Assembly (NCBI GenBank): GCA_005789565.1
Contig: SXXL01000036.1
Coordinates: 1-44,458, forward strand
DNA from: Bacteroidota bacterium
Lineage (GTDB): Bacteria > Bacteroidota > Bacteroidia > Chitinophagales > Chitinophagaceae
DNA: 44,458 nucleotides
Direction of reading: 5' to 3'
Part shown: piece by piece, positions 11,704 to 25,624 of the stretch
How positions within the stretch are numbered: position 1 is the first letter of the stretch
How the letters are laid out: the number at the start of each line of letters is the position of its first letter
Notes under the pieces: generated by a model
What the model was told of the DNA's origin: nothing
Databases searched by the model: none
Seen by the model: the letters and a program-made list of their open reading frames with translations, nothing else
Translations under genes and position numbers: made by a program

Positions 11704-12099
11704 ATGCGAAAAGGGATCTATGCCATAGTCGTTGCGCTCTACCTCCTGCTCTCCTCCGGAGTGGTACTGCAGTTGCATTATTGCATGGACCGCCTGTCCG
11801 AGATCGGTCTTTTTACGTCCGATCACAAAGATGTCTGTGATGATTGCGGTATGGACATGGATGCAGACAACGATTGTTGCCATGACCGCACCGATGTGAT
11901 CAAACTGGTCCAGGACCAAACCTACCAGTCGGGATCCATCTCCTTGTCCAAAATAATTATCACGGAATTACCTGCCTCCCTATCGATTCCGGATTTGGTG
12001 CACCATTCACAAAACGACTCCCCGTTGGTTGGTTCGGATCCGCCCGAACCACGCTCGGGTCGGTATCGTTACCGGACCTTGCAGGTGTTTAGAATTTGA
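11704..12099 (+). CDS. HYC_CC_PP family protein (small metal-associated protein)
   Basis: A 131-residue protein with an N-terminal signal or anchor helix (about 5-24) followed at once by H25-Y26-C27. Next come a cysteine pair, C45-x-x-C48, then C58-C59 in DNDCCHD and a P113-P114 pair near the C-terminus. This H-Y-C ... C-C ... P-P pattern is the one that names the HYC_CC_PP family of Bacteroidota, which is usually found beside heavy-metal genes. The D/C/H-rich middle (about 40-61) looks like a soft-metal site. It heads a run of HMA, HMA, thioredoxin and barrel genes. It probably acts on the periplasmic side in binding or sensing copper or a similar metal, but no member's function is established to my knowledge. 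Confidence 0.8.
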   Translation: MRKGIYAIVVALYLLLSSGVVLQLHYCMDRLSEIGLFTSDHKDVCDDCGMDMDADNDCCHDRTDVIKLVQDQTYQSGSISLSKIIITELPASLSIPDLVHHSQNDSPLVGSDPPEPRSGRYRYRTLQVFRI

Positions 12100-12164
12100 T
12101 CGGAGCACAAGATTTATCACCCTTGATTGTTGCTCGTTTTTTAAATCACTCAATCACTCAAATC

Positions 12165-12653
12165 ATGAAAAATATTCTCACGTTATTGGTCCTGGTTCTC
12201 TCCCTGAACCTCGCCGCTCAACAAACCACCACGTTTGCCGTATCCGGAAATTGTGGTATGTGTAAATCTCGTATTGAAAAGGCCGCCAAAGAAGCCGGTG
12301 CTACAGAAGCCAACTGGAACGATGAATCCAAGATGCTTACCGTTACTCTGCCCGCCAGTGTAACCCTTTCCGCCATCCAGCAAAAAGTGGCTGCCGTCGG
12401 ACATGACAATGCCGGTGCCAAAGCCCCGGATGAAGTATACAACAAGCTTCATGGTTGCTGCAAGTACGATCGTGCTGCCGCCGGAGCCGAGGTCAAGCAA
12501 TCTTGTTGCCAATCCGGTGAGTCTTGCAAAAAGGGGGAACATAAATCCGCCGATTGCAAAGGCAAGAAATGCAGTACAAAGGATAAGTGCACGAAGGACG
12601 GCAAATGCAGTGCGTCGTCCAAAGACAGTAAAGATTGCTGTAAGAAATCCTGA
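12165..12653 (+). CDS. Exported heavy-metal-associated (HMA) protein with a cysteine-rich tail
   Basis: A 162-residue protein started at the ATG at 12165, where a proper signal peptide begins (MKNILTLLVLVLSLNLAAQ). The HMA fold follows, with the metal-binding loop GNCGMCKSRIEKA (C30, C33) and a ferredoxin-like beta-alpha-beta-beta-alpha-beta pattern to about residue 95. The remaining 65 residues are a lysine/serine-rich tail with eleven cysteines (98, 99, 114, 115, 121, 131, 136, 142, 148, 158, 159), reminiscent of a metallothionein. It likely binds copper, zinc or a similar ion in the periplasm. The stop overlaps the next gene's ATG by one base (TGATG), which implies coupled translation. The metal cannot be told from sequence. 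Confidence 0.85.
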   Translation: MKNILTLLVLVLSLNLAAQQTTTFAVSGNCGMCKSRIEKAAKEAGATEANWNDESKMLTVTLPASVTLSAIQQKVAAVGHDNAGAKAPDEVYNKLHGCCKYDRAAAGAEVKQSCCQSGESCKKGEHKSADCKGKKCSTKDKCTKDGKCSASSKDSKDCCKKS

Positions 12654-13171
12654 TGATAGCGAAACGACTCAGTAAGGTCACCGCCTTGGCGGTGGCCTTA
12701 CTCTTGTTTTCGTTCTCGTTGCGGGCACAATTCAGTCAGGGCCGTCTGCAGGCTACGGGACTGACCTGTGCACTCTGCAGCAAATCGATTCATCAGGCAC
12801 TTGATCAGCTTCCGTTCATTGAATCGGTCAAGCCCGAGTTGAAATCCTCCTCATTCGACATCCGATTCAAGCGCGAACAGTCCGTTTCGGTCCAGTCGAT
12901 CCGGGCCGCCGTGGAAGATGCCGGATTTTTTATTGGTCAGCTCACCCTTGAACTTTCCGAGGTTGCTGCCGATTCGTTGCGTTCCGGAAATCGATGGCCC
13001 GGTGAGGCATCGGCCTTTCGGGTGTTGGGTGAATGGAAGGAAGGCCAATCCCTTCAAGTGATCGAGAAGGGGTTTCTGTCGGAAAAAGAATTCAAGCGTA
13101 TCCTCAGCCGTTATCCCGAATCAGAAAAAGAGTTGGGCAAGGGGATCTGTTTACTCCCGATAAAAAAATGA
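12653..13171 (+). CDS. Exported HMA-domain protein, divergent
   Basis: A 172-residue protein with a signal peptide (about 1-25, ending LRAQ). An HMA-like domain has LQATGLTCALCSKSIHQAL, where C39 and C42 form the CxxC metal loop. The domain then continues through IESVKPELKSSSFDIRF and IRAAVEDAGFFIG. The last 70 residues form a separate small domain without recognisable motifs. Compared with its upstream neighbour it lacks the cysteine tail. The start overlaps the upstream stop by one base and the end overlaps the thioredoxin gene by four bases (ATGA), so it sits inside a translationally coupled set. A periplasmic metal-carrier role is inferred from the fold. Confidence 0.78.
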   Translation: MIAKRLSKVTALAVALLLFSFSLRAQFSQGRLQATGLTCALCSKSIHQALDQLPFIESVKPELKSSSFDIRFKREQSVSVQSIRAAVEDAGFFIGQLTLELSEVAADSLRSGNRWPGEASAFRVLGEWKEGQSLQVIEKGFLSEKEFKRILSRYPESEKELGKGICLLPIKK

Positions 13172-13656
13172 TCATGTTCATCCGACTTTTTATGCTTGCG
13201 TGTGGCTGGGTAACCGTGAGTGTGGCCAGTGGCCAGTCTTTGGACGGAAAACCTGGGTTCCCCATCGCATTGAAAGACCCTTCCGGAAAAACCATTTCGT
13301 TGGACTCCTTTAAAGGGAAATGGGTTTTGGTGGATTTTTGGGCTTCCTGGTGTGGCCCCTGCCGGGCTTCGAACCGGGTGGTTCGAAAGATCTATCCAAA
13401 ATGGAAGAAAAAAGGGATCGAGGTACTGGGGGTTTCGCTGGATGAAGATCGGTCCCGATGGATCAAGGCAATAAAAAAAGATCGGATCGCGTGGCCACAG
13501 GTCAACACGCCGGCGCAGTGGGACAGTGAACTGATCCTCCAATGGAAAGTGGAACGGATCCCCACGACCTACCTGATCGATCCGAACGGGGTGATCCGGG
13601 CAACCGATCCGGATCCCGGGAATATTCTTTCCATGGTATCAAAAATGAATCCATGA
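13168..13656 (+). CDS. TlpA-like exported thioredoxin
   Basis: A 162-residue protein started at the ATG at 13168, which overlaps the upstream stop as ATGA. A second in-frame ATG at 13174 is possible. A signal peptide (about 1-23, ending VSVASGQ) precedes a TlpA/ResA-type thioredoxin domain. It has FKGKWVLVDFWAS followed by the W61-C-G-P-C65 active site, and the cis-proline loop RIPTTYLIDPNG with P132. It would keep periplasmic cysteines reduced. Here the likely clients are the CxxC and CC sites of the adjacent HMA and HYC_CC_PP proteins. It ends in another ATGA overlap with the next gene. Confidence 0.92.
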   Translation: MIMFIRLFMLACGWVTVSVASGQSLDGKPGFPIALKDPSGKTISLDSFKGKWVLVDFWASWCGPCRASNRVVRKIYPKWKKKGIEVLGVSLDEDRSRWIKAIKKDRIAWPQVNTPAQWDSELILQWKVERIPTTYLIDPNGVIRATDPDPGNILSMVSKMNP

Positions 13657-14475: not shown

Positions 14476-15252
14476 TTATTTCTTTTTCGTGGGCGTCCGG
14501 AAGGAAAATCCAATCGCGAGGTAATAATCGGTCGCCGTCTCGGTCAAGCCGTACGAACCCGAAAGGTCGATCTTGGTATCATCCGTAAAATAATAGGCCA
14601 GGCCTCCGGCAACGGAGTGTTGCGGACTGCTTCCTTTTCGGACTGATCCCCAAAGCTCGACGTACGCATAGCCGTTTTTACCAAGGTTGTATCCGGGGGC
14701 GAAGGTGTAGATCCAGTCGGGCGTCGAACTGAATCCATCCCATTCCGCACCGACGTTGTATCCGAGTGCGGCCCGATCACTCAGGGTATTTTGCATTACA
14801 AAGCGAAAATTGGGCGACCAGTTAGGCGTCTGAAAAACGGCACCGCCCCAGCGCGGCAACGAGGTATGTGCGATCAACGAGGTCTTGGGTCGCCAACCTT
14901 TTTCTTCCATCAGGGCCAGTTTGCCTCCGAATTGGAGGGGAAGCACACCGGTCTTTCTGTTGGCGATCGAGGTGTCTGACTTGATCTGGATCGTTTGCAT
15001 CTCGGTGATCATCCGAAATTCGAATCGCTCATTCAGCCCATATTTCCAAAGGGCCGTGGGATGTACCCATTGTGTGAGCCCGTCCACTTTCTCCAGGTTA
15101 AAACCAAACTCGGCTTGTAAATAATTTTTCTTTGTCAGATAAGGCGATTCAGTCTGATCCGGTCGGTCGGTTTCCATGCGGCCCGTCTGCTGCGCATATG
15201 CCCCTTGACAAAACAGCAAGAGTAGGATCAGGTTTATGGAAACTGTTTTCAT
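14476..15252 (-). CDS. Outer-membrane transporter-like barrel (MetA-pathway type)
   Basis: A 258-residue exported protein with a signal peptide (about 1-20, ending GAYAQQ). The mature start, METDRPDQTESPYL, with the motif TDRPDxT, is characteristic of the Bacteroidota 'transporter' proteins grouped with the phenol MetA-pathway barrel family. The remainder alternates strands and turns, ending with LSGSYGLTETATDYYLAIGFSFRT. It starts nine bases after the ATP-grasp-like gene and is probably the last gene of the minus-strand operon that begins at 21160. If so, it may pass the cluster's product or substrate through the outer membrane. Other members of this family are often found without such context, so the link is inference. 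Confidence 0.75.
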   Translation of the reverse strand: MKTVSINLILLLLFCQGAYAQQTGRMETDRPDQTESPYLTKKNYLQAEFGFNLEKVDGLTQWVHPTALWKYGLNERFEFRMITEMQTIQIKSDTSIANRKTGVLPLQFGGKLALMEEKGWRPKTSLIAHTSLPRWGGAVFQTPNWSPNFRFVMQNTLSDRAALGYNVGAEWDGFSSTPDWIYTFAPGYNLGKNGYAYVELWGSVRKGSSPQHSVAGGLAYYFTDDTKIDLSGSYGLTETATDYYLAIGFSFRTPTKKK

Positions 15253-15261
15253 CGGGGTTAT

Positions 15262-16458
15262 TTAGGATTCAAAAAAACACAGACTACCACCTACCCAAGT
15301 TCTGTCTTTGTTGTAGCGGGTTCCGATCATTTTGCCTTTACTGAGTCGGGCCAGGTTCAGGGTGGGCATGGGCCTGCTCGCCTCTGGTGGCCAGAAATAA
15401 AATATCCGGATCTCCACCTTGGCCGGATCATCGGGCGTGGGGATCACCGGGGCATAGTTCACTTTTCGTTGCAAGATCCAGTTTTCCGGATCGGGGATGG
15501 CAGCGAGGTGCTCCGGACGCAGGTCAATGATCACACCCTGTCCGGCAAACGAGAACAATGGTTTCAGTACGTAGGATTCCAGGTCTGTCGGCACCTGGGT
15601 GATCTCATGCAGGAAATAGGTCTTGGGGATATTCGGATGATGCAGAAACGGTAGTAGGAATTTGCTAACCCGATAAAACCAGTCGGGGTGCGGACACCAT
15701 TCCAGCGACGGACATCGTAGTAGCAGGTCGCCTTGTTTACGGATCGGATCCGGTTGCTGCTCCAACTCATCAAAAATGATCCGGTTATAGATTCGTTTGA
15801 TGGGATGCCAGGTGCCGGCCCGCTCGTAGAAGAGTTCTCCATTTTTCTCCCGGAGTTCGGTGAGGCAAACAATGGGAAGGCTCAGGCTTTCGGCCGTGAT
15901 GAGAAAATCGATCCTGGTTTTTTGCTGATGCGGTAAAATTTCCAGCAACACCACTTCCGGTGGGTCATGCTCACCAACGATGATGCGTCGCAGCAGTTGG
16001 TGATAGGTGTCGGGATCTAAGCCACTGAGAAAAGGAGTGTACGAGGGGTCGATCGAAAAAAACTGCTGGTACCAACCGGCCAGTCGTGCTTGATATCCGA
16101 ACAGCGATGGAAAACCCTGCAGCTCGATGAGTTGGGGACTGAGTTGTCCCGCTTCATCCGTACAGACACCAAAATCAAAGGCGAGAAAATCAGGTCTTCC
16201 GATAGCGCCGGGGATCTTCCAGTCGCGCGGGATCGATCGCTCGGTTGCGGCCATGAAGCCGGGCTCCAGGATCCGGTCGATAATGTGCTCGCAGGTATCA
16301 AGGAGTTGCTGTGTGAAGGGGCGATCGACCCAAACGGGTGTCTCCGCCACACGAAAATCCAACGCCCCCGGATAATTCTTTTCGATCGCTTGTAGCAGGC
16401 CTTTGTAGGCTGCGGACTCGAACGCACGATTGAAGGATTGACGGATGTGTGAGATCAT
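15262..16458 (-). CDS. ATP-grasp-like protein, glutathionylspermidine-synthase-type (tentative)
   Basis: A 398-residue cytoplasmic protein without signal peptide. Segments that recall circularly permuted ATP-grasp ligases are a middle PQLIELQGFPSLFGYQ (like the substrate/metal strand of that fold), LESYVLKPLFSFAGQGV (about residues 309-326, a lysine followed by a glycine-containing nucleotide loop) and VEIRIFYFW near the end. A C-terminal GTRYNKDRTWVGGSL closes the protein. These are weak matches seen by eye, so the fold call is tentative. It would join a carboxylate to an amine using ATP. It lies 50 bases downstream of the glutamine amidotransferase in an operon with a GCS2 ligase and a second ATP-grasp enzyme, which strengthens the ligase reading. 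Confidence 0.55.
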   Translation of the reverse strand: MISHIRQSFNRAFESAAYKGLLQAIEKNYPGALDFRVAETPVWVDRPFTQQLLDTCEHIIDRILEPGFMAATERSIPRDWKIPGAIGRPDFLAFDFGVCTDEAGQLSPQLIELQGFPSLFGYQARLAGWYQQFFSIDPSYTPFLSGLDPDTYHQLLRRIIVGEHDPPEVVLLEILPHQQKTRIDFLITAESLSLPIVCLTELREKNGELFYERAGTWHPIKRIYNRIIFDELEQQPDPIRKQGDLLLRCPSLEWCPHPDWFYRVSKFLLPFLHHPNIPKTYFLHEITQVPTDLESYVLKPLFSFAGQGVIIDLRPEHLAAIPDPENWILQRKVNYAPVIPTPDDPAKVEIRIFYFWPPEASRPMPTLNLARLSKGKMIGTRYNKDRTWVGGSLCFFES

Positions 16459-16508
16459 CAGACAAATTCAGGTAGTAAGATACGCTTTTGGGCAGACCGG
16501 GTCAAGGA

Positions 16509-17354
16509 TCAAAGGGCAACCTCCAACAAAGTCTCAGCAGCCAACCGAAGGAAGTTGGGGATCACCTGTGAGTAGGTCCGTCGAATCTTGTCCGCATCCT
16601 CCAAATGATCCAACATGCTCTGCCACTTGGCCTCTCCGTGGTGTTCGATCACCTGTTGTTTTTTTTCTTCCTGCAAAAGGTATAACCGCATTCCCTCCGG
16701 ATCGGCCTCCGGATGGAATTGGGTGCCGATCATCCAGGGGTTGAGACGAGCGGCCATCAGTGCTCGCTCAAACGGCACATGTGGTCTTTCTTTTTCCAGA
16801 CAAAGCGACCTGCCGCCCATTTCCGCCAACCGGTGCTCGTTCGGATGAATGACCTGATAATCGCGGCTATCCACCACGTAGAATGGATCCGACAATCCCT
16901 CAAAAATGGATTCTTCTTTTCCACCCATGAGCCGGTGTACCGGAAATACACCAAAGGCGGTGCCATGCCTTTTGCAGACCATGCCCAGATTCAAATGCCG
17001 GCAGGCCAGTTGAAAGGAGTGGCAAATGAAGAAGACAAATTTTTTCTGATGCGAGTCAGGATTTTGATTATGACGCATGAGGGCATCTAACCAGCGACAC
17101 CAAGCGATGTCCCAATCTTCATAGCGGGAAGAAAGCGGATCACCCGGTCCCCCGGTCGAGAGGTACACGTCATACTCCATTCCGGGGAGGGCCCCCGTCA
17201 ATCGAACCTCAAACGTATCCACGCTGAGTTCGATCTGCTCCCGGGTCGACCATTCGTCCAAGATCTGATGAATACAGCGCATGCCCTGATTGGGTGCTCC
17301 TTGATAGAGGTCCAAGATGGCCACGCGCAAGCGCGGATTATCGGAAGCAATCAT
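16509..17354 (-). CDS. Class I glutamine amidotransferase-like protein
   Basis: A 281-residue cytoplasmic protein. The Rossmann-like start VAILDLYQGAPNQGMRCI is followed by an oxyanion-type STGGPGDP (66-73). The nucleophile elbow is FFICHSFQLA with C111, and the catalytic pair H214/E216 sits in QFHPEADPEG. The complete Cys-His-Glu triad means an active glutamine amidotransferase or gamma-glutamyl hydrolase is likely. A helical extension (about 230-281) lies beyond the domain. In this operon of ligases it could deliver ammonia to one of them, or hydrolyse gamma-glutamyl linkages. It is 71 bases downstream of the amidohydrolase and 50 bases upstream of the ATP-grasp-like gene. Confidence 0.88.
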   Translation of the reverse strand: MIASDNPRLRVAILDLYQGAPNQGMRCIHQILDEWSTREQIELSVDTFEVRLTGALPGMEYDVYLSTGGPGDPLSSRYEDWDIAWCRWLDALMRHNQNPDSHQKKFVFFICHSFQLACRHLNLGMVCKRHGTAFGVFPVHRLMGGKEESIFEGLSDPFYVVDSRDYQVIHPNEHRLAEMGGRSLCLEKERPHVPFERALMAARLNPWMIGTQFHPEADPEGMRLYLLQEEKKQQVIEHHGEAKWQSMLDHLEDADKIRRTYSQVIPNFLRLAAETLLEVAL

Positions 17355-17425
17355 GCCACAAACTTACTCGAATTCAATCCCGTTCAGGAGGATCGGTTGC
17401 CGCGGATTCTCCACAACTTGTGGAT

Positions 17426-19090
17426 TTATTTTTTCTGATAAACGGCTTGACCGTTCATGAATGTGGCGAGGACCTTAGTTTGTAAAATTTTTTCGGATTC
17501 GACCTGCATTAAGTCCTGATCCAACACAATAAAATCCGCCCATTTGCCTTTCTCCAAACTTCCCTTTGTTGTTTCTTCAAAGCTTCCTTTGGCAGCCCAG
17601 CTCGTCATGCCCCGCAGGGTTTGCTCCCGCGTGAGGGCGTATTCGGGTAAGAACCCATCGCTGGGCCAACCGGCGGCATCTTTTCGGACCACGGCGCTGT
17701 AGAAGGTTTTGATGGGTGAAATATCCTCCACCGGAAAATCAGTTCCCAATGGCATCCATCCGTTTTGCTCCAGCAACGGTTGATAGGCATAAGCATTTTT
17801 GATGCGGTCGCTTCCGAGTCGTCGCTCAGCCCAATACATGTCGGATGTGGCGTGCGTAGGTTGTACGGAGGGGATCACCCGCAGCTGACGAAACAGGACC
17901 AGGTCGTACGGATTCACCACTTGTGCATGCTCGATGCGCCAGCGCAGGTCGTTACGCTTGGGCAGATATTTTGCATAGGTATTCAGGATGACGCGGTTGC
18001 CGCTGTCGCCGATGGCATGGGTGCAGAGTTGCCATTGGTGTTGGAGTGACCAGTGGGCGATCGAGTCAAAATGTGCCGGGTGGCTCAGTAAAAAACCATA
18101 GTGGCCGGGTTTATCCTGATAGGAGTGGAGCAAACAGGCGCCTCGTGAGCCCAGGGCTCCATCTCCATATACTTTGATGCTGTGTACCGTGAGCCGGTCT
18201 GTTTTTATTTTTCCGTTTTTCTCTGCAAATCGATAATTGGAAGGGTCATCGCTTAGCATAACGTTCAGCCGCATCCATAATTTATCCTCGGCTTGGAGTT
18301 TTTTCAACTTCTCTACCTGTGTGTGATGCAACCCGCAATCGGTGATCGAGGTGAGTCCTACGGCGAAGCAATTGGACTGGGCCTGCATCAGGGATTGCGT
18401 ATATTCCTCCTCGGTCGGTGTTGGGATCAGTCCGGTTACCCGATCCACCGCGTTATCGATCAGTAATCCGGTCAGCGCACCGGCTCGCGTTACAAATTCA
18501 CCTCCTACCAGCGTGTTGCCGGGTTGAATACCGGCGAGGCGCAAAGCTGTTTCATTGGCCAGGGCGGCATGTCCGTCGATCCGGATGAGCACCGCGGGTC
18601 GGTCAGGATACAAGGTATTCAAGTCAAGGTTATCGGGAAACTCTTTGACCGGCCAATCGTTTTGGTCCCATCCTCTTCCGATCACCCAGCCATCGGGCCG
18701 GTTCGTGAAAAATGTTTTCACGCGTTCGATGGTTTCGGTCCAACTGGTGGCACCCACCAAATTCGCTTCCCGAAGTCCCAGCGCGTATTGAACAAAATGG
18801 GCATGGGCATCGTTGAGTCCGGGTACGATGGTACGTCCATTCATGTCCAGCACGGTATCTGCCGCATATTTTCCTTCGAGCAATGCCCGGGTGCCGGTTT
18901 CCAGAATTTTACCGTCCCGAATTGCCATGGCTTCCGCCACGCTGAATAAAGAGTCGACGGTATAGATGCGGGCGTTGACGATCAGGCTATCGGCTTGTTT
19001 ATTGAAGGCGCAAGCATGGAGCACCAATAACAAGCCCACGGCACACAGTGGCCGCATCGAAGAGGAGGCGGGGAATGTTTTAGAGTCCAT
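17426..19090 (-). CDS. Amidohydrolase family protein (YtcJ-like, probable lipoprotein)
   Basis: A 554-residue metal-dependent hydrolase of the Amidohydro_3 group. The N-terminus has a hydrophobic segment ending LVLHAC with a possible lipobox cysteine at 27. If the ATG at 19057 (residue 12) is used, the signal peptide is shorter and more typical. The first metal motif is PGLNDAHAHFVQY (H96, H98), later histidines sit in THAIGDSGN and WRIEHAQVV, and an aspartate in PLGTDFPVE closes the site. It would hydrolyse an amide or related bond in the periplasm if the signal is real. As written it overlaps the upstream ligase gene by eleven bases. An exported hydrolase in a cytoplasmic ligase operon is unusual. 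Confidence 0.85.
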   Translation of the reverse strand: MDSKTFPASSSMRPLCAVGLLLVLHACAFNKQADSLIVNARIYTVDSLFSVAEAMAIRDGKILETGTRALLEGKYAADTVLDMNGRTIVPGLNDAHAHFVQYALGLREANLVGATSWTETIERVKTFFTNRPDGWVIGRGWDQNDWPVKEFPDNLDLNTLYPDRPAVLIRIDGHAALANETALRLAGIQPGNTLVGGEFVTRAGALTGLLIDNAVDRVTGLIPTPTEEEYTQSLMQAQSNCFAVGLTSITDCGLHHTQVEKLKKLQAEDKLWMRLNVMLSDDPSNYRFAEKNGKIKTDRLTVHSIKVYGDGALGSRGACLLHSYQDKPGHYGFLLSHPAHFDSIAHWSLQHQWQLCTHAIGDSGNRVILNTYAKYLPKRNDLRWRIEHAQVVNPYDLVLFRQLRVIPSVQPTHATSDMYWAERRLGSDRIKNAYAYQPLLEQNGWMPLGTDFPVEDISPIKTFYSAVVRKDAAGWPSDGFLPEYALTREQTLRGMTSWAAKGSFEETTKGSLEKGKWADFIVLDQDLMQVESEKILQTKVLATFMNGQAVYQKK

Positions 19091-20189
19091 GTAAGAATTG
19101 TTGGTTTATATACTGGGCAACGGTCCGTAGGTCATTAGATTCCTGGTGGATGCGGAGTTGCCGGTCGGCGCCCGTTCCATTTTCCAAGATGTCTTGTACA
19201 CGCTCTACGCGGTGGCGGCTGCCGAGTTCATCGAGTACGTGATCGAGGAAGTCCAGTAATTCGCCCAGCAGGATGCGGGCGCTTACTTCCTCTTCTTTGC
19301 CGAAGTCGATCAGATTTCCATCGACGCCATATCGGCTTGCCCGCCATTTGTTCTCGTTGAGCAGGGCGCGTGAATATTGAATGAAATTGAGGTTCTTGGA
19401 GCGCAGCATGTAAATCCGGGCACAGATGGCTTGGAACAGGGAGGCGATGGTGATGGTTTCATCGACGGTCATGGGTATGTCGCATATCCGGAATTCAACC
19501 GTGTTGAAGAACGGGTGTACGCGGAGGTCCCACCAGATCTTCTTGGCGTTGTCGATGCAGTTGGTCTTGATGAGCAGTTTTACATAATTGTCATAGGCCT
19601 CGATGCTGTCAAAGGCATCGGGGATGCCGGTGCGCGGAAATTTATCAAACACTTTGGTGCGGTAGGATTTGTAGCCGGTCTTACGTCCTTCCCAAAAAGG
19701 CGAGTTGGTGCTCAGGGCGAAGATGTGGGGCAGAAAATAGCGGGTGCTGTTGGCGATGTGGTTGGCCATTTCCCGGCTCTCCATACCCACGTGCACGTGC
19801 AGGCCAAAGATGAGGTTGCTGCGGGCCGCATCTTGCAGCTCGTTGACGATCTCGCTGTATCGGACGTGTTCGGTGATGAGTTGGCTCTCCCAGTGACTGA
19901 ACGGGTGTGTGCCGGCGGCCCCCATGGCATAGCCTAAATCTTTCGCGATCCCGTGGATCGTTTTCCGAAGATTGGACACATCCTGATAGGCCTCATCGGC
20001 ATCGGCACAGATATCGGTACCCACCTCCACGACGGCTTGGTGCATCTCCGCCTTCACTTTTTCCTTGAGGAGTTTATGCCCTTCGTGTACGATCTGCTGT
20101 TGGTGACTTTTCAGTTCCAGCGTAGTGGGGTCGAGCACCATGTACTCCTCTTCAACTCCGATCGTGAACGTTTTGTAATTCAGTGGCAT
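19080..20189 (-). CDS. Carboxylate-amine ligase (GCS2 / YbdK type)
   Basis: A 369-residue protein of the glutamate-cysteine ligase 2 family, of normal length. The N-terminal TFTIGVEEEYMVLDP carries the metal-binding acidic cluster E13-E15. Further family blocks are AAGTHPFSHW, the GLHVHVG strand (about 131-137), HPFFNTVEFRICD and NKWRASRYGVDG. These enzymes use a glutamine-synthetase-like fold to join a carboxylate (often the gamma-carboxyl of glutamate) to an amine through an acyl phosphate. YbdK of Escherichia coli has weak glutamate-cysteine ligase activity. It follows the ATP-grasp gene after 17 bases, so the pair resembles a glutathione-like two-step synthesis. Substrates are unknown. 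Confidence 0.93.
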   Translation of the reverse strand: MPLNYKTFTIGVEEEYMVLDPTTLELKSHQQQIVHEGHKLLKEKVKAEMHQAVVEVGTDICADADEAYQDVSNLRKTIHGIAKDLGYAMGAAGTHPFSHWESQLITEHVRYSEIVNELQDAARSNLIFGLHVHVGMESREMANHIANSTRYFLPHIFALSTNSPFWEGRKTGYKSYRTKVFDKFPRTGIPDAFDSIEAYDNYVKLLIKTNCIDNAKKIWWDLRVHPFFNTVEFRICDIPMTVDETITIASLFQAICARIYMLRSKNLNFIQYSRALLNENKWRASRYGVDGNLIDFGKEEEVSARILLGELLDFLDHVLDELGSRHRVERVQDILENGTGADRQLRIHQESNDLRTVAQYINQQFLHGL

Positions 20190-20206
20190 AGGAGGGGCAT
20201 TTGAAA

Positions 20207-21160
20207 TTAAATCAGCGGTTGTTGATGACTGCTTCGCTTAACGTATTCGCCCCAGGTCAGGTTATCTTTTCCGGCTTCTTGTGTCAGGGCTTTTTCGATC
20301 GCAAATTGCGCGGCGGTCTCCACCACCCACTCAAAATTTTCCTCGCCCACGCTAGCCCGGTCGGCATCGGGGGCAGGGTTACAGAAATCGATGGCATAGG
20401 GAATTCCGTCGCGCACGGCCAGCTCCACGGTATTGAAATCGTAGCCCAGGTACCGGTTGATGGTGAGTACGATGTCGGTCATCTGTTGGAGGCGTTCCGG
20501 TGATGGCGCGAAATCGGCCACGTAGCGCAGGTGGTGGGGGTTGCGGGGTTCATAGGGCATGATGCGGACGTATTTTCCCCCGATGCAATAGCAGCGGTAA
20601 TATTCGGTGAAAACGATCTCTTCTTGGAGCAGCATCACGAGCTGACCGGTTTCCGCGTGTTTGCTGTAAAATTCTTCCGGGCTACGAAGCTTGTAGACAT
20701 GTTTCCAGCCACCGCCGGCAAAAGGTTTCATGTAGGCCGGAAATCCTACGTAGTCAAAAATGCTTTTCCAGTCGAGCGGATAGGACAGGTTTGCAAAGGA
20801 TTCGGGGGAGGTATCGTCGGGCAGTTCCCGGGAGGGACTGATGGCGGTTTTGGGAACGGGTACACCGAGTTGGGTCATCAGACAGTTGTTGAAATACTTA
20901 TCGTCGGCGCTCCACCAGAAGGGGTTGTTGATCACGGCCGTGCCGGTGACAGCCGCATTTTTCAGCCAGGTACGATAGAAGGGAACGTCTTGGGAGATCC
21001 GGTCCACAATGACGGCGTAGCCGCTGGGTTCTCCTTGCATGGCTTTATCGAGTCGGACCGGCTCGGCCTGCACGCCGGCGATGTTTTTGCTGTTGATACG
21101 CGATACAAAAGCTTCCGGGAAGCTTCGCTCTTTACCGTGTAGAATTCCTATTTTTTTCAT
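20207..21160 (-). CDS. ATP-grasp ligase, glutathione-synthetase-like
   Basis: A 317-residue protein read from the ATG at 21160, opening MKKIGILHGKERSFPEAFV. A TTG nine bases earlier lies inside the -7 box and is unlikely as a start. The ATP-grasp features run in order. They are a pre-ATP-grasp domain (about 1-105), a substrate-like loop NNPFWWSADDKYFN, the nucleotide-binding lysine and glycine loop in YMKPFAGGGWKHVYK, the LLQEEIVFTEYYRCYCIG strand, and the metal-binding FNTVELAVRDGIPYAIDFCNP. It would make an acyl-phosphate-driven amide bond. It is the first gene of the six-gene operon and has a near-perfect promoter. The likely partner is the GCS2 ligase that follows. Confidence 0.88.
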   Translation of the reverse strand: MKKIGILHGKERSFPEAFVSRINSKNIAGVQAEPVRLDKAMQGEPSGYAVIVDRISQDVPFYRTWLKNAAVTGTAVINNPFWWSADDKYFNNCLMTQLGVPVPKTAISPSRELPDDTSPESFANLSYPLDWKSIFDYVGFPAYMKPFAGGGWKHVYKLRSPEEFYSKHAETGQLVMLLQEEIVFTEYYRCYCIGGKYVRIMPYEPRNPHHLRYVADFAPSPERLQQMTDIVLTINRYLGYDFNTVELAVRDGIPYAIDFCNPAPDADRASVGEENFEWVVETAAQFAIEKALTQEAGKDNLTWGEYVKRSSHQQPLI

Positions 21161-21166
21161 ATGTAT

Positions 21167-21198
21167 CAAATGTATTTTGTCGCCCGCATTTTGGCAAA
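21167..21198 (-). promoter_or_regulatory. Strong Bacteroidota promoter of the amidoligase operon
   Basis: On the reverse strand TTTG (21198-21195), a 20-base spacer and TACATTTG (21174-21167) match the Bacteroidota -33/-7 consensus in both boxes and in spacing. The -7 box ends six bases before the ATG at 21160, so the transcript should have almost no leader. Confidence 0.75.
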
Positions 21199-21228
21199 AG
21201 AAATCGAGGGGCTCGGCTTTCGTTTCCC

Positions 21229-21236
21229 TATTTTTA
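21229..21236 (+). promoter_or_regulatory. Possible -7 box of the divergent esterase
   Basis: TATTTTTA, one mismatch from TAnnTTTG, ends four bases before the esterase ATG. No clear -33 box is seen. The 80-base gap would carry promoters for both directions. Confidence 0.3.
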
Positions 21237-21240
21237 CCCG

Positions 21241-22053
21241 ATGTCGGAATCGATCTCTTCCTTGGTAACCGGACCGATCGTCCGGGAGTGGAACTCCGCT
21301 ATTTTGGAGCGGATGGTCCGCGTCGATCTGTATTTGCCCACGGGACCATTGCCTGAATATTGTCCGCTACTCTTGGTCAATGACGGGCAGGATCTCCGCA
21401 CCATGCAATTCGAACAGATCATCGGCGAATTGTGGCGGGAGCAAGCTATTGGTCCGCTGCTCGTGGCCGCCATTCACGCGGGGAAGGACCGACGAATGGA
21501 ATATGGAACCATGGGAGAACCCGATTATCTGGGAAGGGGTAGCCGGGCAGGGGCCTACCGCGATTTTATACTCGAGGAATGCCTGCCCTGGATCACGCGG
21601 CAATACCCTCAGACCAACCAGGCAAAGCACTCCCTGTCAGGATTTTCGTTGGGGGGATTGTCCGCTATGGACCTGGTCTGGCATCATCCCGAAAGGTTTT
21701 CTTCCGTGGGCGTATTTTCCGGTTCCTTTTGGTGGCGTAGTGTGGCACAGGAAGATCCGCTCTATTCGGATGACCGCCACCGGATCCTGCACCAGCGGAT
21801 CCGTCGGGGAGCCGGTGCTTCCGATCAACGTTACTTTTTTCAATGCGGTGCGATGGATGAGCAAAAGGATCGAAACCGTAACGGCATCATCGATTCGATC
21901 GATGATACCCTCGACTTGATCGAGGAGCTCGTACGCAAAGGGGTATCACGTTCTACGCAGATCTATTACTTGGAGTTGGCCGACGGAAAGCATGACATCC
22001 CCAGTTGGGCCAGGGCCTTTCCATTCTTTCTTCGATGGAATTTCGCTCCATAA
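21241..22053 (+). CDS. Alpha/beta-hydrolase-fold esterase (esterase D-like)
   Basis: A 270-residue cytoplasmic protein of the PF00756-type esterase group. It shows VRVDLYLPTG and LLLVNDGQD early, then the nucleophile elbow SGFSLGGLSA with S136. The catalytic histidine candidate is H251 in ADGKHDIPSWARAFP, and an acid candidate is D206 in CGAMDEQKD. A segment D210-R-N-R-N-G-I-I-D218-S-I-D221 resembles an EF-hand or dockerin calcium loop. It is transcribed away from the ligase operon, across an 80-base gap, and ends at a strong bidirectional terminator. It could hydrolyse an ester or thioester on the cluster's metabolite; that is inference from position. Confidence 0.85.
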   Translation: MSESISSLVTGPIVREWNSAILERMVRVDLYLPTGPLPEYCPLLLVNDGQDLRTMQFEQIIGELWREQAIGPLLVAAIHAGKDRRMEYGTMGEPDYLGRGSRAGAYRDFILEECLPWITRQYPQTNQAKHSLSGFSLGGLSAMDLVWHHPERFSSVGVFSGSFWWRSVAQEDPLYSDDRHRILHQRIRRGAGASDQRYFFQCGAMDEQKDRNRNGIIDSIDDTLDLIEELVRKGVSRSTQIYYLELADGKHDIPSWARAFPFFLRWNFAP

Positions 22054-22100: not shown

Positions 22101-25100
22101 TTAATTGAACAGGTAGCGTAAACCAAACTGCATGGAATACGTAGAGAAGACACTCACGTTGTCGCGGAACGTACGCGTGATCATCTCGTTTTGGGCAGTG
22201 GCCAACTTGAAGGTTGGTACCACGGCACCACCCGGGATCAGTGAGCTTTGGTTCTGCGGGATCAGGATGGAGCTGTTGTTGATGGACTTCAACTTGCCCC
22301 AGCTCGGGTTGAGCAGGTTTCCGAAGTTGAAGATATCCACCGTGAACTGCAGGGTGTTCTTGGTCTTGCCCACTTTGGTGAAGACATCCTGTGCGAATTT
22401 CACATCCAGACGATTCAGCCAGGGAAGTTGGGCACCGTTACGCTCGGCATATTGTCCGCGGCGACCACGCAGGTATTTGTCCTGCTGGATATAAGCTTCA
22501 AACAAATTGCGCTGGGCTGTTTGATCGTAGGAAACGCCGTTTTGTGTATGGCTTACGAATTGCATTTGCTGCAACTCGGCTGCCGTGGGCACATAGATCA
22601 GGTCGTTTCCGTTCACCCCATCGCGGTTGAAATCACCGTTGTAGGTGTAAGAGAAGCGTCCGTTGATACCACCATTGTAATAAAGCGAAATGGAGGTAGC
22701 CAGGTGCTTGAAATATTCTTTGCGGTAAGCCAGTACGGCAACGACGCGGTCAGGAATCACGTAATCGGCGTAGGAGAGATTCTGATAGTTGGATCCCGCG
22801 ACAGAGGCAGTACCCTGCCATGCGGAGAGGGGCTGGTCGCCACCACCATCGAACAAATTACCGGCCATCGACTTGGTGTAGGCTACCGAGGCAGAAAGTC
22901 CTTTATTGAAGGTCTTCTCCAGTTTGGTGGTCAGGGAGAAGTAATAACCGCGGGAGGCGTTATCCAGAATGACTGGGTTGAACTGGTTGGGGGCTCCGGC
23001 TGCAAATACACCTGTACTTGTAAGTGTATTGAGGAATCGAGTTTGAACCGTTGCTCCATACATCGGACGGCTGTCGGGGTATCCGGCCACGTTCAGGGGA
23101 ACGGGGGGGCGGATGTTGGCATGACGGAAGAGAGCAGTGACTAGGTCTTTATTAAAGATAGCCTCGATGGTAGCGATGATGCCGCCGGGCATTTTAGCAT
23201 CCACTGCCAAACTTGACTTCCAGGACTGAGGATTTTGGAAATCATTAGCCAGCGCAGTGATCGATGTAGGGATAATGGTTCCGGCTTGGGGTACAACAGC
23301 CGGACGATATGCAGCGGGATTCGGATTGAATGGGCCGGGAGTATTGGCCTGTCCATTAAATGCTTGTGTAATTTGAAGCATACCGTTGTTTCCTGATTGG
23401 CTCACAATCCATACAAATGGTACACGTCCGGTAAATATACCTGTTCCACCACGGATCTGCAGAGAGCGATCGCCGTAGAGATCCCAGTTAAAACCTACGC
23501 GCGGAGACCACATGATCTTTTTCTTAGGCAGCACGCCGGTATTGATCTTTTCTCCGCCAACGAACGTAGCGGAAGCGATCAATGGATGAGTGACAATCTG
23601 TGGTGCAAATGGATAAGTGGGTAGATCGGCACGCAGTCCCACGGTCAAACGGAAGTTTTTGTTGACAGCGATCTCATCCTGTCCGTAGAGCGAGTATTGA
23701 GCAAAGCGGAAGGCGGAGAAAGCAGGGGCAAAGTTAGGAGAAAGTGAGTAGGTGAGAGCGAAGTCGCGTGGCTTTGCACGCAAGGCCGGATTGGGATTCA
23801 ACGCACTGGCGAAATCTGCCCAGGTATTGAATACGTAGTAACTAGTCGCAAATGGCTGGAATCCATTAATGGTTTGGCTATAATCAATCTGTCCGCCAAC
23901 AGTCCAATTGTGTTTGTTTTTGGTCCAATTAAAATAATCTATAATCGAGTAAGTTTTAACTTTACGTAGGTTGCCAAAGCTGAAAAGTTCATATCCAAAT
24001 GATGTGTAAGGAGCAGATGAAGCTACGCCGGTGGTGCTCAATATGTCTACAAAAGGGAAAGTTTGATTAAAGCCGACAGTAGTAGGTTGGCTCTCGACGG
24101 AACGAGAGTCATTCTGGTAGGTGAAGGTACCGCGCAGGGTATTGGAAACTTTACCCCAATTCGAGTTCAACTCAGCAGCGATGGAATAAAGGTTGGCACC
24201 CTGGAAATAGTTGGAGTTTTTAAACCACAGGGAGTTAATGTTCGTACGGCCCAGTCCGGTAGCGTAATTAAATCCGGCATTGGTGGTGGAGCCGGAGGGA
24301 GTGAAGGGTTCACCGCCTTCTACTTGGCTATACCGGATATTGAAACGATGATGATCGTTGATGTTCCAGTCGATGCGCGCCAGATATTTGGTACGCTCGA
24401 TGTTGGGGGTGTAATTATCGAAGGGCCCTGTCTCATATCCATAGTTGGTGAGCAGGTATTGACGAATGAAGTTCAGGGAGTCGGCCGAGGGGCGGGCGAT
24501 ATTAGGACTGCTTCCGAAAGTGGCAGCTGCCGTAGCGGCTACGTTGGTCTGCAATTGCTTCGGGGAGGTCTCCGTTTCGTAGTTGAAGAAGAAGAACAGT
24601 TTGTCCTTGATGATGGGTCCGCCAATTCGGAATCCGTATTGCTTGAATTCTTCCGCAGCTGGTACGAAGTATGTTTTTTCGACCCGACGACCACGCTGGT
24701 TCTCATTGCGGAAGTAGGTGTACACGGAGCCAGAGAAGGTATTCGTACCGGAGCGGGTAACAGCATTGATCGCACTACCGATGAATCCGGTTTGACGAAT
24801 ATCGAAAGGCGTGATGTTGACGGAAACTTCTTCGACGGCATCGATCGAGATCGGAGATCCGCCGGCCGGCAGGTTGGATCCGATACCGAAGCTGTTGTTG
24901 AAGTCGGCACCATCCACGGTGAAGTTGTTTTGACGATAGTTACCACCGGCAACGGAAGCACCGTTAGCTTGCGGGGTAATACGGGTGATGTCGTTCAGTC
25001 CCCGGCTGATGGTCGGCAGCTGATTGATCTGGCGAACCCCGATGTTGGTGAGGGCTCCGGTGCGGCCGGAGTTCAGGATCGCGTTTTTACGACCGCCGGT

Positions 25101-25457
25101 GATGGTTACCCCGGTCATGGTCGTGGATGTTTTCTCCAGCCCCGGATTCAGCAGAAAGGATTCGGCGAGTTGGAGGAAAATATTCTCGTATTTCTCGGTG
25201 TTGTGCCCTACGAAGCTGACCTCGATCAGGTAGGGGCCACCCACGCGCATGTTTTGGATGGAGAACTGTCCACCCGCACGGGTAATGGTGGTGTACTTGG
25301 TACCGGAGGGCTGGTGCGTGGCAACGATGGTAGCCCCAACCAGGGCTTCATCGGTGCTGCTTTTAACGACGCCGTTGATCGCCGAGGTGGTAATCTGGGC
25401 GAAGGTCTGGCCGGCCACGAAAACAAGCGCGAACAGAACGAGGATTCTCTTAAGCAT
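22101..25457 (-). CDS. Oar-like TonB-dependent receptor
   Basis: A 1118-residue outer-membrane receptor, read from the ATG at 25457, where a signal peptide (about 1-21, ending GQTFAQ) begins. A carboxypeptidase-regulatory-like beta-sandwich (about 23-110, SAINGVVKSSTDEALVGATIVATH) comes first. The plug follows, with TNIGVRQINQLPTISRGLNDITRITPQAN and the FTVDGADFNNSFGIGSNLPAG segment. A long barrel then ends AQNEMITRTFRDN...MQFGLRYLFN, with a terminal aromatic residue near the end. The 'ARIDWNINDHHRFNIRYS' block is typical of Oar proteins. It imports an unknown ligand or acts as a surface component using TonB energy. It is flanked downstream by the terminator at 22059. Its barrel contains an A/T-rich stretch around 23.8-24.1 kb, unlike its neighbours. 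Confidence 0.93.
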   Translation of the reverse strand: MLKRILVLFALVFVAGQTFAQITTSAINGVVKSSTDEALVGATIVATHQPSGTKYTTITRAGGQFSIQNMRVGGPYLIEVSFVGHNTEKYENIFLQLAESFLLNPGLEKTSTTMTGVTITGGRKNAILNSGRTGALTNIGVRQINQLPTISRGLNDITRITPQANGASVAGGNYRQNNFTVDGADFNNSFGIGSNLPAGGSPISIDAVEEVSVNITPFDIRQTGFIGSAINAVTRSGTNTFSGSVYTYFRNENQRGRRVEKTYFVPAAEEFKQYGFRIGGPIIKDKLFFFFNYETETSPKQLQTNVAATAAATFGSSPNIARPSADSLNFIRQYLLTNYGYETGPFDNYTPNIERTKYLARIDWNINDHHRFNIRYSQVEGGEPFTPSGSTTNAGFNYATGLGRTNINSLWFKNSNYFQGANLYSIAAELNSNWGKVSNTLRGTFTYQNDSRSVESQPTTVGFNQTFPFVDILSTTGVASSAPYTSFGYELFSFGNLRKVKTYSIIDYFNWTKNKHNWTVGGQIDYSQTINGFQPFATSYYVFNTWADFASALNPNPALRAKPRDFALTYSLSPNFAPAFSAFRFAQYSLYGQDEIAVNKNFRLTVGLRADLPTYPFAPQIVTHPLIASATFVGGEKINTGVLPKKKIMWSPRVGFNWDLYGDRSLQIRGGTGIFTGRVPFVWIVSQSGNNGMLQITQAFNGQANTPGPFNPNPAAYRPAVVPQAGTIIPTSITALANDFQNPQSWKSSLAVDAKMPGGIIATIEAIFNKDLVTALFRHANIRPPVPLNVAGYPDSRPMYGATVQTRFLNTLTSTGVFAAGAPNQFNPVILDNASRGYYFSLTTKLEKTFNKGLSASVAYTKSMAGNLFDGGGDQPLSAWQGTASVAGSNYQNLSYADYVIPDRVVAVLAYRKEYFKHLATSISLYYNGGINGRFSYTYNGDFNRDGVNGNDLIYVPTAAELQQMQFVSHTQNGVSYDQTAQRNLFEAYIQQDKYLRGRRGQYAERNGAQLPWLNRLDVKFAQDVFTKVGKTKNTLQFTVDIFNFGNLLNPSWGKLKSINNSSILIPQNQSSLIPGGAVVPTFKLATAQNEMITRTFRDNVSVFSTYSMQFGLRYLFN

Positions 25458-25624
25458 AATGGTTTTGGTTTTCGATTGCAAAGAAACGGAAAATTCCTAG
25501 GTAAATATAGGCAAATATCCAGTTTCCGCCTTGAAAAATAAGGAATTACGAACGGCGAGTTCTCCACAGAAAATTCCAGACCTCAGCCAGCAGGCCAAGC
25601 CTGATCGATATTTTCATAAACCCT

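Follow-up and report, generated by a model that had tools for sequence, protein, structure and literature searches.

The window analysed here (44,458 nt of contig SXXL01000036.1, C28 in our numbering) comes from a 1.88-Mb, 94% complete Chitinophagaceae genome and carries a set of seven genes in which three predicted amide ligases lie beside putative amide- and ester-cleaving enzymes. Six of the genes, AG1, GCS, AMH, GAT, AG2 and BARREL, follow one another on the minus strand (14476–21160), separated by 17, -11 (overlap of GCS and AMH), 71, 50 and 9 bases in that order, while EST is divergent on the plus strand (Table 1). The best start codon of AG1 is the ATG at 21160 (the mechanically called open reading frame, ORF, begins at a TTG at 21169) and lies 80 bases from that of EST, leaving a shared divergent region. 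The ORFs, the short same-strand gaps, the divergent esterase and the 80-base region given in a preliminary description of this DNA were all recovered. Compared with L049, the nearest relative and the one tested in which synonymous change was unsaturated, all seven genes are under purifying selection (ratio of non-synonymous to synonymous change, dN/dS, 0.028–0.092), with identity highest for AG1 and GCS (94%) and lowest for AG2 and EST (78%).

Table 1 Features of the AG1–EST locus, with positions in the window and the basis of each assignment.
Feature	Assignment	Position	Strand	Basis
AG1	ATP-grasp ligase, RimK/LysX/D-Ala-D-Ala ligase-like	20207..21160	-	predicted fold, invariant residues
GCS	YbdK-type carboxylate-amine ligase (GCS2 family), predicted	19080..20189	-	HMM cut-offs, PDB profile match
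AMH	Amidohydro_3 hydrolase, lipobox-like N-terminus (by eye)	17426..19090	-	PF07969, E 6.5e-82; lineage addition
GAT	class I glutamine amidotransferase-fold hydrolase	16509..17354	-	triad; PF00117 just below cut-off in the window
AG2	glutathione synthetase/glutathionylspermidine synthase-fold ATP-grasp ligase, predicted	15262..16458	-	AlphaFold and Foldseek
BARREL	outer-membrane barrel	14476..15252	-	PF13557 (Phenol_MetA_deg), E 2.1e-19; lineage addition
EST	enterochelin-esterase/esterase-D-like alpha/beta hydrolase	21241..22053	+	PF00756, E 7.3e-27
Promoter-like site	TTTG-N20-TACATTTG	21167..21198	-	pattern and kept boxes

Predicted folds and families of the ligases and hydrolases

GCS passes the curated hidden Markov model (HMM) cut-offs for YbdK (NF010039, 521 vs 371 bits; TIGR02050, 292.2 vs 176.4 bits), matches PF04107 (GCS2; E 3.7e-59, score 200.9 vs a cut-off of 21) and, as a profile, finds the solved ybdK structure (PDB 1r8g; E 1.7e-65). 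By these matches it is assigned as a YbdK-type GCS2 carboxylate-amine ligase.

For AG1, a Pfam search at E 0.01 returned no family, and matches to three NCBIfam RimK/LysX models all lie far below cut-off. With 28.9 vs 143.4 bits for TIGR00768, AG1 falls outside the RimK-family alpha-L-glutamate ligases by that cut-off and is like them in fold only. The predicted structure (predicted local distance difference test score, pLDDT, 89.5) has RimK (5zk6), the D-Ala-D-Ala ligase Ddl (3r5x) and ArgX (3vpc) as top Foldseek matches, with the graspetide ligase PsnB among the first ten and LysX lower down. K148, E249, D261 and N264, whose putative roles are assigned from position, are invariant in all 28 sequences compared, each of which has D-x-x-N at the place where, by positional alignment, E-x-N would be usual. 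AG1 thus resembles RimK, LysX/ArgX and Ddl in predicted fold and in ATP-grasp-type residues but differs from them in its sub-cut-off NCBIfam scores and its D-x-x-N motif. Placement in the R2K clade, presented in PMC4431377, was set aside, both scores being below cut-off (R2K_3, 14.7 vs 26.3 bits; R2K_2, 13.9 vs 26.2 bits).

AG2 likewise matches no Pfam or NCBIfam family at E 0.01 and passes no cut-off; at 11.5 bits against PF03738 (GSP_synth; cut-off 29.3) it falls outside the glutathionylspermidine synthases (GspS) by that measure. Its AlphaFold model (pLDDT 93.9) matches yeast glutathione synthase (1m0w; E 1.6e-14), a putative GspS (3n6x) and human GSS (8fbz) best, and also YgiC (7uk8) and Cp1B (9cjn). 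The 22 PDB chains matched at E <= 0.001 comprise glutathione and homoglutathione synthetases, GspS types, YgiC/YjfC, GSS-like nematode proteins and Cp1B, and by this model AG2 is a predicted member of the glutathione synthetase/GspS fold. Both ATP-grasp calls of the preliminary description, for AG1 and AG2, are therefore borne out by predicted fold.

AG2 shares its predicted fold with eukaryotic-type glutathione and homoglutathione synthetases and is found in an operon with a GCS2 ligase, but identity in the structural alignments is 10–15%, no Pfam family is matched over cut-off and the genome encodes bshC. AG2 also resembles GspS, YgiC and YjfC, termed peptidylpolyamine synthetases in PMC12568646, in fold, and YgiC is its best PDB match by sequence, a weak one (E 0.012); the PF03738 score, by contrast, is far below cut-off. 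The same source describes fungal Cp1B of the E-64 pathway, once a hypothetical protein lacking any Pfam domain and now recognised as a ligase that makes pseudodipeptides without a non-ribosomal peptide synthetase (NRPS). AG2 has the same fold, equally lacks a Pfam domain and, like Cp1B, is paired with another amide-forming enzyme. Cp1B differs in being fungal and in having an ANL amide synthetase as partner, rather than a GCS2 or RimK-like ligase, and the AG2 core lacks an oxygenase. At one locus (L189:4613-7237), AG2 lies within a single 875-aa open frame following a membrane protein of sodium-solute-symporter type (by eye), a candidate fusion.

The Cys-His-Glu triad of GAT (C111, H214, E216) is invariant in 27/27 sequences, which upholds the earlier class I amidotransferase-fold call; scores against PF00117 (GATase; cut-off 22.8 bits) range from 20.7 (L193) and 21.1 (window; E 2.8e-4) to 43.9 (L078). 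AMH is probably extracytosolic, given its lipobox-like start, and no signal peptide is evident by eye in EST. BARREL had been called a transporter-like barrel: a barrel family is matched, and the transporter label derives from PF13557 only.

Conservation of the core across Bacteroidota

AG1, GCS, AG2 and BshC were searched for in 395 Bacteroidota genomes and GAT in 370, with alignments as queries for AG1, GCS and GAT and a single sequence for AG2, which may be undercounted for this reason. Matches were found in 134/395 (AG1), 129/395 (GCS), 115/395 (AG2) and 78/370 (GAT) genomes; one AG2 match (G423; E 4e-4, stops present) was discarded, leaving 114. Co-occurrence, counted here as genomes uncorrected for kinship, is extensive: 110 of the 114 AG2 genomes carry AG1 and 109 carry GCS, the 134 AG1 genomes include 110 with AG2 and 114 with GCS, and AG1 is present in 77 of the 78 GAT genomes. 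In some genomes, G080 and G096 among them, the three ligase genes are widely separated on one contig.

Gene order was compared in 55 AG2-centred stretches from 26 families, hand-chosen for spread from the 115 AG2 matches; five GCS-centred stretches (L104–L108) bring the total to 60. Neighbourhood maps consist of six-frame ORFs selected by length, those <90 aa being omitted, and are not gene calls; in two GC-rich loci (L190 and L195) this selection masked real genes that were later recovered, and the label EST is loose in L074, L079–L081 and L106 (26–30% identity). AG1, GCS and AG2 occur together in 24/55 stretches, representing 13/26 families, and their order is invariably AG1-GCS-x-AG2; position x is taken by GAT in 12 stretches, by AMH-GAT in 2 and by an M29 peptidase in 5, and is empty in the other 5. 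Partial sets are GCS-GAT-AG2 (3 stretches), AG1-GAT-AG2 (2), GAT-AG2 (2) and AMH-AG2 (6). An alpha/beta hydrolase other than EST (cluster c5) is present in 14/55 stretches, in 13 of them immediately before AG1, and M29 peptidase, M17 peptidase and additional ATP-grasp clusters are found in 5/55, 3/55 and 4/55. ABC transporter and short-chain dehydrogenase clusters, both of large families, each occur in 8/60 stretches.

A second sample was drawn from named AG1 loci and comprised the 80 best of 584 confirmed stretches, which, as the best-scoring part of a longer list, are close relatives; it overlaps the 55-stretch set by at least one contig, and in 27/80 the downstream sequence is <6,000 bases or the upstream sequence <1,500 bases long. 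These loci include GCS (77), EST (77), GAT (18), AG2 (16), AMH (7) and BARREL (2). EST precedes AG1 on the opposite strand in all 77 cases, with c5 intervening in four of them. Conservation of gene order, on which the preliminary description was to stand or fall, therefore holds for the core, but its full seven-gene order including BARREL recurs only in L049 among the 55 stretches and in 2/80 AG1 loci. Among cultured carriers, Flavihumibacter petaseus NBRC 106054 (locus L170) resembles the window in combining EST, AG1, GCS, AMH, GAT and AG2, and Niabella pedocola and Sediminibacterium ginsengisoli have EST-AG1-GCS.

AMH lies between GCS and GAT in 2/55 AG2-centred stretches and is paired with AG2, in the absence of AG1 and GCS, in six (L087, L089, L092, L097, L100 and L101); on these counts AMH was rejected as a core step. 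The Amidohydro_3 proteins of the six pairs have 30–35% identity to AMH of the window (Pfam call made for L100), so that these pairs, with a different Amidohydro_3, form a second link between AG2 and Amidohydro_3 families. BARREL was found in 2/55 stretches and in two AG1 loci, and outer-membrane export was accordingly rejected as a core function. AMH and BARREL look like late, lineage-level additions, with BARREL probably outside the core pathway. The proposal that the cluster 'trims and exports' its product thus finds no support for the core, where the barrel is rare and the amidohydrolase is lineage-specific, with a lipoprotein-like start in the window.

Seven AG1 loci from the 24 AG1 genomes lacking AG2 were read. 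Six (L190, L193, L195, L196, L197 and L198) have the order AG1-ligase-GAT, the ligase being a CP_ATPgrasp_2-like protein (Pfam matches, run for two of these proteins, are below cut-off); the seventh (L208) has neither this protein nor GAT. AG2 has weak likeness to this permuted stand-in ligase (hhalign E 0.0017, probability 15.6). Since pairing of AG1 with a permuted ligase persists here without AG2, the old core would be a pair formed by AG1 and a permuted ATP-grasp ligase, to which GAT is usually added and, in most AG2 carriers, GCS. A lone AG1 beside a histidine ammonia-lyase-like gene (by eye; L199:12545-14122 and L200:3624-5228) was seen in two genomes belonging to a single family. Carriage of the set on plasmids was rejected, as neither AG1 nor AG2 found a match at E 1e-5 when 72,556 plasmid records were searched by tblastn.

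Promoter-like site and flanking genes

The promoter-like site preceding AG1, TTTG-N20-TACATTTG, is of the Bacteroidota promoter type. The pattern occurs twice in the window (0.70 expected), a frequency within chance (>=2 in 18/100 shuffles), but of the 12 upstream regions aligned, 11 retain both boxes, that of the window included (counted by eye). The promoter proposed earlier is thus favoured by conservation of its boxes and not by the pattern match itself. In the window, L109 and L104, the TACATTTG box (21160-21175 region) is 6 bases from the AG1 ATG, while leaders are longer in other relatives keeping the boxes. This spacing suggests that the AG1 transcript may be leaderless, with a possible shift to a leaderless transcript in these three. 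Scans for sigma-70 promoters (7 vs a shuffled mean of 5.5) and terminators (13 vs 8.6) yielded numbers close to, or a little higher than, those of shuffled sequence.

Upstream, on the plus strand (11704-13656), are genes for small Cys-rich proteins, by eye heavy-metal-associated, and then a TlpA/thioredoxin-like protein (Thioredoxin_8, E 6.8e-21), which might together serve in the handling of copper or other metals. The gene beside EST (22101-25481) encodes a large barrel of the outer membrane that carries a carboxypeptidase regulatory-like domain (PF25183); barrels judged similar by eye were seen in 43/80 named AG1 loci, and the corresponding cluster (c10, PF25183) in 5/60 stretches.

A candidate amide-ligase pathway and its alternatives

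Three ATP-using amide ligases encoded beside amide- and ester-cleaving enzymes suggest that a small compound is put together step by step and recycled, and a gamma-glutamyl core would fit the presence of a GCS2 ligase alongside an enzyme of glutathione synthetase fold. On the evidence of predicted folds and invariant residues, of gene order and co-occurrence and of selection, we favour, with moderate confidence, an amide-ligase pathway in the cytosol, independent of NRPSs, for building and turning over a small gamma-glutamyl or pseudo-tripeptide amide. In the proposed order of steps, GCS would link a carboxylate, gamma-glutamyl or similar, to an amine or an amino acid. AG2, acting like glutathione synthetase, GspS or YgiC, would convert the carboxylate left free on the GCS product into an acyl phosphate and add a third block, either an amino acid or a polyamine. 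AG1, by analogy with RimK, LysX and Ddl, might make or extend the peptide part. GAT would more likely hydrolyse a glutamyl amide than supply ammonia, given that an M29 aminopeptidase, or nothing, fills its slot elsewhere, and EST may recycle the compound, a role that could fall in other genomes to the second alpha/beta hydrolase and to M17 or M29 aminopeptidases.

Several observations weigh against this pathway. GCS is missing from five and AG1 from four of the 114 AG2 genomes, 24/134 AG1 genomes lack AG2, many carriers lack GAT, and AG2 has no same-strand partner from the set in 18/55 stretches, a few of these being cut by contig ends. TM-scores of the best fold matches of AG2 are ~0.5–0.6 and its sequence likeness to characterised ligases (PF03738 and YgiC, above) is marginal. 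The core also contains neither an amino-acid tailoring enzyme nor a conserved transporter. The amidoligase cluster of the preliminary description is retained as a conserved set with predicted amide-ligase folds; the gamma-glutamyl chemistry proposed for it is plausible, although GCS is absent from those five AG2 genomes.

Occurrence of a GCS2 family member and a glutathione synthetase fold in one operon could also indicate a glutathione-like redox thiol, in which GCS would make gamma-Glu-Cys and AG2, in the manner of the eukaryotic glutathione pathway, would attach the third residue, and the window's own 94% complete genome gave no match in a search for GshB (PF02955). We regard this as unlikely: bacillithiol is already predicted from BshC in 384/395 genomes, that of the window included, making replacement of the main thiol improbable; GCS is absent from the five AG2 genomes noted above; and AG1 and GAT would be left without a role. 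PMC6282198 reports the detection of N-methyl-bacillithiol in a single strain of Bacteroidetes, Polaribacter sp. MED152.

The intact GAT triad, the several associated hydrolases and the short-chain dehydrogenase cluster, albeit of a large family, would also suit catabolism of amines or amides by gamma-glutamylation, of which the Puu putrescine pathway is an example, with GCS tagging the amine, GAT stripping the glutamyl group and other hydrolases degrading the remainder. However, no oxidoreductase lies within the core order in any of the 24 complete stretches and two further ATP-using ligases are unexpected in catabolism, so such a route appears improbable. Tagging of a protein or peptide by a RimK-like AG1, or a graspetide pathway (ribosomally synthesised and post-translationally modified peptide), might be read from the Foldseek ranking, where RimK is the best fold match of AG1 and PsnB is in the first ten; but GCS and AG2 belong to ligase types that act on small molecules, and the gaps within the operon, <=71 bases each, are too short to hold a precursor gene (ORFs <90 aa outside it were not searched), and this explanation is considered quite unlikely. 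That these are unrelated housekeeping genes sharing a transcript, as the variable content around the core and the frequent separation of AG2 might imply, is very improbable, being contradicted by the recurrent order in 13/26 families and by co-occurrence even when the genes are dispersed.

This gene neighbourhood was not met among the papers listed in the literature searched, which was mostly open-access and excluded a 2009 amidoligase survey, so that prior mention is possible. That survey, by Iyer and colleagues, reportedly covered predicted amidoligase neighbourhoods and the same class of context, with ATP-grasp and other amidoligases alongside peptidases.

About one third of the sampled Bacteroidota genomes (AG1, 134/395) hold at least part of the set, and its product is for this reason probably of general use to Bacteroidota. 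More tentatively, and at somewhat less than even odds in our judgement, the set could specify an amide-linked gamma-glutamyl or pseudo-tripeptide metabolite (cofactor, osmolyte or signal), widespread in Bacteroidota, that exists beside bacillithiol and is made via three ligase families, one of which is bacterial and has the fold of eukaryotic glutathione synthetase. Naming the compound would assign functions to a number of conserved families in one step, and would extend the glutathione synthetase fold class by a bacterial enzyme, possibly acting outside glutathione and polyamine chemistry, that may be a useful biocatalyst.

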